A DNA stretch of 34,696 nucleotides from Chloroflexota bacterium. Lineage in GTDB: Bacteria; Chloroflexota; Dehalococcoidia; UBA2979. Positions 29,301 to 30,756 of this stretch are shown piece by piece. Under the pieces are notes generated by a model that ran no database searches, was not told where the DNA came from, and saw nothing but the letters and a program-made list of their open reading frames with translations. Position 1 is the first letter of the stretch. Each line of letters starts with the position of its first letter. The stretch spans positions 1 to 34,696 of the forward strand of contig VGPD01000025.1 of assembly GCA_016875635.1 (NCBI GenBank). Direction: 5' to 3'. The position numbers and the translations under genes were made by a program.

Positions 29301-29744
29301 CTACGCGCGGGGACGCTCCCAGACCGTCTCGTAGCCCTCGCCGCCGCGGATGGCGGCGACGACGTCCGCCCGCTCCAGCCGCTCCGCCTCGCGGAAGACG
29401 CGCCGGGCTCGTTCGACTGCCGTGTCGCCACCCACACGCGCCACACGGGCCTCGATCCGGGTACAGACGCCAAGGTCACGCATGACCTGAAGCGCGCGCG
29501 GCCAGAAGAACACGGTGATCTGTTCCGGAAGCGGGACTTCCGGGCGAACTTTCTGGAGGTAGCGGTAGCGCTCCGCGGCGCCGCTCACCGGCGGGACGAT
29601 CTCGATGAACGGCTGGCCGTCGGCACCCGGCCGGGCGTCCACCAGCAGCCGCTGTTCGATGAGCGAAAAGCGCACGACGAACACCGGCGCTTCATCGATC
29701 ACGCGGAAGATCGCCTCAAGGTCGAGCCCGCGGTCAGCGTCCAT
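29301..29744 (-). CDS. Unknown protein, 147 aa
   Basis: Start ATG at 29744, preceded at 6 nt by TACGAT (29751-29756, minus) and no ribosome site, so probably leaderless. Text such as LEAIFRVIDEAPVFVVRFSLIEQRLLVDARPG and a C-terminal ARRVFREAERLERADVVAAIRG is mixed alpha-beta and soluble, with one Cys near residue 95 and no signal peptide. I recognise no family; it could be conserved within the phylum. The CcdA gene lies 39 bases upstream on the same strand. Confidence 0.6.
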   Translation of the reverse strand: MDADRGLDLEAIFRVIDEAPVFVVRFSLIEQRLLVDARPGADGQPFIEIVPPVSGAAERYRYLQKVRPEVPLPEQITVFFWPRALQVMRDLGVCTRIEARVARVGGDTAVERARRVFREAERLERADVVAAIRGGEGYETVWERPRA

Positions 29745-29783: not shown

Positions 29784-30557
29784 CTAGACGCGAACCTGGA
29801 ACGTCCGGCCGAGATAGGGAAAGTGCAAGAGTTCGCTCATCTGGAGCCCCATCACAACGAGCACGAGCCCGCCGACACGCCCGAGGGTGTCCATGCGATC
29901 CGAGACGAGCGTCCCGCCGAACCCGGCGGACGCCCCCACCGCCGTAAAGACCACCCCGAAACCGAAGACAAACGCGCCCGCGTTCCGGAGGACGTGCGCC
30001 CGGCTCGCCTTCGCGCTGCCGGTCTCCAGTACCGCCTCACCCGCCATATTCACCAGGTAAGCGGGGACCAGCGGCAACACACAGGGCGACAGGAACGAGA
30101 CCACGCCTCCGAAGAAGGCGATGGCCGGCCCCATGCCGCCCGCGACGCTGCTGCTCAGCTCACCCTCCGTCTCCGCCGTGGCGGAGAACAGGAAGCCAGC
30201 GCGTTGAGCTGCGGCATTCAGTCGCTGGAACTCGCCGAAGATCATGAGGAACCCAAGGACGATGAAGATCAGTCCGGCACCCAATGCCAGCCTCGGCAGA
30301 TAGGGACCAAGTCGGCGCAGCCGCGGGGCGATCCAGCCGAAAAATGCCCCGAACGCGAGGAACCAGACGCCGAGGCCCGCTGAATATGCCAGCAGCAGCA
30401 ACGCACCCTGGGCGGCCGTCCCGGAAGCCGCGGCGAGCGTCAGCACGACACCGAGGATCGGTCCAATGCAGGGCGACCACGCGATCGCGAAGGCCGTACC
30501 CAGGACAAAGGACCGGGGGACACCTCGTTCGCGCCAGACACGTGGGATGGATGCCAT
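29784..30557 (-). CDS. ccdA: CcdA/DsbD-TM-type membrane protein with circularly permuted halves
   Basis: 257 residues from the ATG at 30557, one base after the stop of the upstream 65-residue gene (TGA, G, ATG). CcdA moves electrons across the membrane from cytoplasmic thioredoxin to extracytoplasmic thiol proteins in cytochrome c maturation, using two membrane cysteines. In CcdA of known bacteria (for example B. subtilis) the segment SF-SPC-LPL-PA comes first, and GWTPC-GPILGA follows. Here the order is reversed: residues about 17-123 read FVLGTAFAIAWSPCIGPILG (Cys 30), three membrane segments and MIFGEFQRLN, the usual C-terminal part; then an acidic linker (about 125-144); then VSFLSPCVLPLVPAYL (Cys 159) and three more segments ending GLQMSELLHFPYLGRTFQVRV, which normally leads into the GWTPC half. 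Both Cys and Pro residues are intact, so it should still work. A TTG at 30569 is an alternative start. Confidence 0.85.
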   Translation of the reverse strand: MASIPRVWRERGVPRSFVLGTAFAIAWSPCIGPILGVVLTLAAASGTAAQGALLLLAYSAGLGVWFLAFGAFFGWIAPRLRRLGPYLPRLALGAGLIFIVLGFLMIFGEFQRLNAAAQRAGFLFSATAETEGELSSSVAGGMGPAIAFFGGVVSFLSPCVLPLVPAYLVNMAGEAVLETGSAKASRAHVLRNAGAFVFGFGVVFTAVGASAGFGGTLVSDRMDTLGRVGGLVLVVMGLQMSELLHFPYLGRTFQVRV

Positions 30558-30558
30558 C

Positions 30559-30756
30559 TCAGCCGTCAATCCCGAGAAGGCGTCGGCGCGCCTGGTCGTA
30601 CTTCTCTTTGGCGCGCGCCTCCCGGTTCAGCAGGCCCTTGATCTGTTCCGGCGGGAGGCGCTTCCCCTCCAGCAACAGGTCATGCACACCGCTCAGCTGT
30701 TTCTGCCACGCCTCGTACGCCGCGCAGTACGCCTGTTTCTGATCATCGCTCATCAT
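30559..30756 (-). CDS. Small charged protein, 65 aa, upstream of ccdA
   Basis: Starts at one of two adjacent ATG codons (30756 or 30753). TACACT lies 6 nt upstream of the first, without a ribosome site, so it is probably leaderless. Helical and charged, rich in Lys, Arg, Glu and Gln: LLEGKRLPPEQIKGLLNREA and EKYDQARRRLLGIDG. No membrane segment and no known family. The stop is one base from the ccdA ATG, so translation is coupled and the two genes are likely functionally linked or at least co-regulated. Confidence 0.65.
   Translation of the reverse strand: MMSDDQKQAYCAAYEAWQKQLSGVHDLLLEGKRLPPEQIKGLLNREARAKEKYDQARRRLLGIDG

Follow-up and report, generated by a model that had tools for sequence, protein, structure and literature searches.

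Can an electron conduit of the bacterial membrane exchange the order of its two halves and keep its orientation? The question is raised by a gene in the window, by which we mean the whole 34,696-nucleotide stretch of contig VGPD01000025.1 (a Chloroflexota genome of the class Dehalococcoidia) that was analysed. An earlier note on this DNA had proposed that the gene encodes a CcdA in which a Glu-rich linker joins the usual C-terminal half, now first, to the usual N-terminal half, and that the new termini would be cytoplasmic and the linker extracytoplasmic, so that the permutation would preserve the topology. The whole gene lies at 29784..30557 on the minus strand and encodes 257 aa from the ATG at 30557, with its stop codon at 29784-29786. 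An in-frame TTG at 30569 (minus strand) is an alternative start that would add four residues (261 codons versus 257), but we take the ATG as the start because an upstream 65-aa ORF (30559..30756, minus strand) stops 1 base before it.

A CcdA homologue with permuted helices

When the protein is compared with solved structures by phmmer, it matches the Thermus thermophilus CcdA (5vkv; E 3.4e-24) in two stretches whose order is swapped: query residues 150-246 align with residues 7-92 of the 5vkv chain, and query residues 20-119 align with residues 113-208 (query numbering from the TTG). Pfam finds the halves swapped likewise, with PF02683 (DsbD_TM) scoring 50.5 bits over two stretches against a curated cut-off of 27.1. 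From these swapped matches, homology places the helices in the order 4-5-6-1-2-3 (hereafter type I) and not in the 1-2-3-4-5-6 order of CcdA/DsbD_TM. As the protein is a CcdA homologue that departs from the helix order of the family, we file it as a permuted CcdA homologue and not as an ordinary PF02683 member. No NCBIfam model matches it at its cut-off, and a search of open-licence PMC full text returned no relevant title on permuted CcdA or DsbD.

All parts of the protein are encoded on the minus strand. The new N-terminal tail (residues 1-15, MASIPRVWRERGVPR, 30513..30557) has a net charge of +3, in keeping with the positive N-terminus that had been described, and is proposed to be cytoplasmic. 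It is followed by the CcdA C-terminal half, TM4-TM5-TM6 (residues 16-108, 30234..30512; bounds set from model helices and hydropathy), and by a stretch resembling a natural C-tail (residues 109-124, EFQRLNAAAQRAGFLF, 30186..30233), a likeness seen by eye and unscored. The linker, SATAETEGELSSSVAGGMGP, was found exactly where it had been placed, at 30126..30185 (residues 125-144 from the ATG, 129-148 from the upstream TTG); it contains three Glu and no Lys or Arg, is proposed to be extracytoplasmic, and joins the usual C-terminal half to the usual N-terminal half in both the phmmer and the Pfam matches. It thus connects TM6 to TM1, the two ends of ordinary CcdA. The CcdA N-terminal half, TM1-TM2-TM3 (residues 145-246, 29820..30125), comes second, and the new C-terminal tail (residues 247-257, 29787..29819; net charge +2, proposed cytoplasmic) corresponds to the start of the TM3-TM4 loop in ordinary CcdA. 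Both CcdA redox cysteines are kept and are invariant in 30/30 aligned proteins: Cys30 in TM4 (WSPCIGPIL, 30468..30470) and Cys159 in TM1 (SFLSPCVLPLVP, 30081..30083).

The protein therefore shares with CcdA (5vkv, PF02683) its six helices in two repeats, the TM1 and TM4 cysteines, and homology in both halves, whereas it differs in helix order, in the linker that closes the former ends, and in its termini, which are predicted to be inside in the permutant and are outside in CcdA. With the β domain of DsbD it shares a homologous transmembrane core. In DsbD, domains at both ends of the protein are described as facing the periplasm (PMC4460558); the permutant, by contrast, has no α or γ domain, is permuted, and has a closed linker in place of the extracytoplasmic ends.

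Conservation of the permuted gene

The window's group is represented by draft genomes in many contigs, in which a swapped order could stem from faulty assembly, from a frameshift, or from reading two half-genes as one. In searches of 60 relatives and then of 393 genomes of the class, however, the permuted protein was found, full length or nearly so and in a single uninterrupted frame, in at least 37 of 44 genomes in the family-level group to which the window belongs (f1), with one of the 37 genes ending at a contig end. Among the matches listed, the remaining 7 f1 genomes comprise one with a fragment and six without a match. The permuted protein also occurs in three further groups (f31, f50, and f66), in at least 8 genomes altogether. 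In the search of 60 relatives, the f1 matches are 37-93% identical to the window protein; 29 other f1 proteins align with it along its length at 36-82% identity, and this alignment of 30 proteins, the window's included, has 40 invariant columns, among them both cysteines. Purifying selection is evident at the codon level: dN/dS is 0.108 and 0.096 in comparisons with two congeners and 0.276 in that with a more distant relative. An artefactual origin of the swapped order is already refuted by these observations, and we assign it practically no probability. Five further loci under public names (L031-L035, from Dehalococcoidia or Chloroflexi bins) are, at least in some cases, the same assemblies and are not independent.

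The surroundings of the gene are conserved as well. An ORF related to the upstream 65-aa ORF adjoins the permuted gene in 25/26 loci of the group, and an ORF related to the downstream 147-aa ORF (29301..29744, on the same strand as the permuted gene) is present in 26/26. Neither ORF has a Pfam match; the downstream one is a possible operon partner of the permuted CcdA.

Two genomes of the window's genus, G003 (L066 and L067) and G002 (L068), also carry CcdA in the ordinary helix order. Both are drafts with 3-6% contamination, and the source of their ordinary CcdA genes is unsure. In G003, the ordinary CcdA is fused to a thioredoxin-like domain (named by eye). A segment before TM1 in L066 and L067 looked at first sight like TM6, and we considered it as a partial-duplication intermediate; this candidate was rejected, the segment being part of the thioredoxin-like fusion.

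Structure model and the orientation question

The AlphaFold model of the window protein (m929f5deab43f) was built from a 113-row alignment that included separate halves of ordinary CcdAs, of whose 75 partial rows one strayed from its expected half. It is a confident model, with a pLDDT of 82.8 and a pTM of 0.74, compared with a pLDDT of 61.8 for an earlier model from 30 rows. The linker region is modelled as helical (residues 110-120 and 122-137), with block mean pLDDT of 75-86 for residues 111-140. A Foldseek search of the PDB with the model gave no match at E up to 0.001. In the VIA ranking, an unrelated entry (Z 7.9) stands ahead of CcdA 5vkv, which takes second place with Z 7.4 over 185 residues at 4.0 A, and this CcdA match is no better than those to unrelated helical transporters. 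The sequential structural alignment lays model residues 10-251 on residues 6-212 of the 5vkv chain at 11% identity. Since CcdA consists of two inverted repeats (PMC7329351), we read this sequential match as pairing the first half of the model with the other half of a pseudo-symmetric fold.

The same symmetry allows another reading, in which the protein is inserted upside down, with the CcdA fold turned over, so that the linker would be cytoplasmic and the two termini outside. Swapping the halves of an inverted repeat could give the ordinary fold inverted, and the near-full-length sequential alignment with 5vkv at such low identity speaks in its favour. Given our reading of the structural match, we tested the upside-down insertion by charge. 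Within the window protein, 10/242 of the 20-residue stretches have a net charge of -3 or lower, and all of these overlap the linker. Across the 45 type I proteins (the window's included, as well as L003, which ends at a contig end), the TM6-TM1 linker is net negative in 45/45. Lys plus Arg are more numerous on the proposed cytoplasmic side in 37/38 rows (38 of the 45 were used for the count by side, with the N-tail left out), and the mean net charge in these rows is +4.3 inside and -2.7 outside. The N-tails, defined as everything ahead of the TM4 block irrespective of start codon, so that some may be untranslated, are net positive in 42/45 and neutral in 3/45. This distribution runs against the upside-down reading, which we regard as very unlikely. 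It agrees with the proposal of the earlier note that the termini are cytoplasmic and the linker extracytoplasmic and, holding across a diverse family, it supports a natural helix orientation and a preserved topology, as judged from charge.

The linker in relation to the natural termini

Both ends of ordinary CcdA lie outside the cell, an established feature of the family (compare DsbD), and the linker sits at the spot where these natural tails would meet. To the eye, it reads as a natural C-tail followed by a natural N-tail. Its length, counted from the TM6 block to the TM1 block, is 17-33 residues in the 45 permuted proteins (median 24), so that it can consist of the two tails and a few additional residues, the natural C-tails being short (median 9 residues past the TM6 match, n = 45). 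Closure of the natural ends by the linker appears feasible, as judged from the AlphaFold model and from the many natural linkers. Glu at residue 131 is kept in 37/38 aligned permuted proteins, with a gap in the other.

The acidity of the linker suits an extracytoplasmic position. A comparison with natural CcdA termini had been suggested in the earlier note. The C-tails of ordinary CcdAs are not acidic (13 negative, 16 neutral, and 16 positive; n = 45), and their N-tails are mildly so (22 negative, 11 neutral, and 2 positive; n = 35), so the linker is more acidic than the natural tails that it replaces. The TM3-TM4 loop of ordinary CcdA, which is the site of the cut in the permutant, is net positive in 38/45.

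A second permutation

A second order, 2-3-4-5-6-1 (type II), was first met in two loci of the class, L051 and L052. Type II loci now comprise these two, L079-L097, and L130-L154; they fall in at least nine family codes (f5, f20, f104, f121, f122, f151, f154, f160, and f161) and include single-contig genomes (G397, G492, G576, and G688). After removal of duplicates, the class and phylum searches together yield 45 type I and 46 type II genes along with 45 in the ordinary order, sorted by helix blocks with score floors applied to the rows; these loci were picked from the best and most telling matches among those listed, and the counts are not frequencies. Dropped before counting were L031-L035 and 14 re-fetched loci (L116-L129).

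The two types have in common the TM6-TM1 joint, both cysteines, and a cut in a loop taken as cytoplasmic. They differ in the site of that cut, which lies between TM1 and TM2 in type II and between TM3 and TM4 in type I, and in the family-level groups in which they are found. Of the 46 type II linkers, 37 carry a net negative charge, 7 carry a positive one, and 2 are neutral; in 44/46 proteins, the linker is less positive than the inner parts.

Some type II proteins depart further from the family. Two of them (L130:2007-3143 and L138:2602-3660) have a long hydrophobic insert between TM3 and TM4, perhaps of several extra helices. In L134, L135, L136, L139, L140, and L146-L154, PCVGFIL or PCIGATL stands in place of the TM4 motif PCIGPIL, with loss of the Pro after Gly.

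Number of origins

To place the three helix orders on one phylogeny, we inferred a tree of 93 proteins with their helix blocks restored to the ordinary order, leaving out 6 ordinary, 19 type I, and 18 type II rows. On this tree, type I requires 3 changes, type II requires 4, and all three labels together require 7, while the well-supported branches by themselves require at least 3 for type I and at least 2 for type II. The type I genes of f50/f66 group with ordinary L098 and L100-L102 (support 99/89), and type I L078 (f31) is sister to ordinary L103 (support 99/98). In AU tests, a single clade was rejected for type I (p-AU 0.0044), for type II (p-AU 0.0063), and for both types together (p-AU 3.7e-5); the labels come from helix order and not from the phylogeny, although a quick tree had been inspected beforehand. 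A single type I clade of f1 and f50/f66 is not rejected (p-AU 0.168, for a grouping picked with the tree already in view), so the origins of type I may number two and not three. The linkers of the f1 and f50/f66 permutants share the Glu. Trees of single halves have few columns and low resolution, and the types are scattered there too.

The tree is unrooted, and some of the changes could be reversals. We take the ordinary helix order as ancestral because T. thermophilus CcdA and the solved CcdA 2n4x (a weak match) have it. Relatives of the window's organism appear to have made such a rearrangement more than once.

Proposed route and function

As a whole, the findings are very probably best explained by a natural circular permutant of CcdA, a six-helix electron conduit. 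Its route would probably have begun with a head-to-tail duplication of CcdA and a fusion that linked the C-tail of the first copy to the N-tail of the second; the outer halves would then have been lost, with a new break in the TM3-TM4 loop. Each helix would keep its ordinary orientation. The two former free tails would be joined outside the cell as a linker that is acidic and in part helical, and the new termini, both positively charged, would lie inside. When the loci were sorted by helix blocks, no second ORF above 35 bits was found beside the permuted gene as a remnant of such a duplication-fusion.

The TM4 and TM1 cysteines would accept electrons from thioredoxin in the cytoplasm and hand them on to a thioredoxin-like protein on the extracytoplasmic side. 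The candidate for this partner is the CcmG-like protein encoded in the cluster for System I cytochrome c maturation. The window's genome encodes CcmB, CcmC, CcmE, CcmF, CcmH, and a CcmA-type ABC protein in a cluster on contig C4, together with a thioredoxin-fold protein with a WCVPC motif (CcmG-like). PF02683 hits the permuted gene as two half matches and finds no other CcdA/DsbD_TM gene in this genome, which is 90% complete, so that another could be missing. In such Ccm systems, CcdA or DsbD keeps CcmG reduced (PMC4460558). From the sole PF02683 gene, the System I genes, and this role of CcdA/DsbD, the permuted protein most likely acts as CcdA, its electron transfer being deduced from genome content, with the CcmG-like thioredoxin as its likely client.

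The near-complete System I cluster spans L165:6829-13725, in which no CcmD was identified, and adjoins ORFs that resemble cytochrome oxidase genes (named by eye).

A permuted protein of the DsbD/CcdA superfamily could instead serve other thiol clients or transport another substrate, outside cytochrome c maturation. The permuted gene lies apart from the Ccm cluster, on another contig, and its conserved neighbours are two unknown ORFs, a β-eliminating lyase, and a DUF3108 protein. However, both CcdA cysteine motifs are kept, and the genome, which has System I Ccm genes and encodes a CcmG-like thioredoxin, yielded no CcdA besides this protein, so we consider such another role improbable and retain that of CcdA.

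Implications for the CcdA family

Permuted genes of this kind may pass for missing or truncated CcdA in annotation, since the window protein has no NCBIfam match at the cut-off and is matched by Pfam in halves. Circular permutation has also been proposed in the evolution of another inverted-repeat transporter, the ZIP metal transporters (PMC13192868); for ZIP, the permutation is an ancient step deduced from symmetry, whereas in CcdA permuted and unpermuted forms occur within one phylum.

An elevator-type mechanism is postulated for CcdA (PMC7329351). Judging from helix order, the N-terminal end of TM1 would be free and outside in ordinary CcdA, with TM4 tethered at both ends, while in the permutant the N-terminal end of TM4 would be free and inside, with TM1 tethered at both ends. 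The presence of both helix orders in related bacteria offers a direct test of the importance of order, of N-tail translocation, and of loop connections, both for membrane insertion and for the postulated mechanism.

More broadly, we lean slightly towards the view that CcdA has been permuted repeatedly within one phylum, in all the cases observed by joining TM6 to TM1 outside the cell and reopening a cytoplasmic loop (TM3-TM4 or TM1-TM2), such that both ends move from outside to inside. If true, nature would have supplied a set of permutants of an elevator-type conduit built of inverted repeats, in which helix order and the placement of the termini would be inessential to insertion, folding, or the motion of TM1 and TM4, suggesting selection for cytoplasmic termini or against the need to translocate an N-tail.
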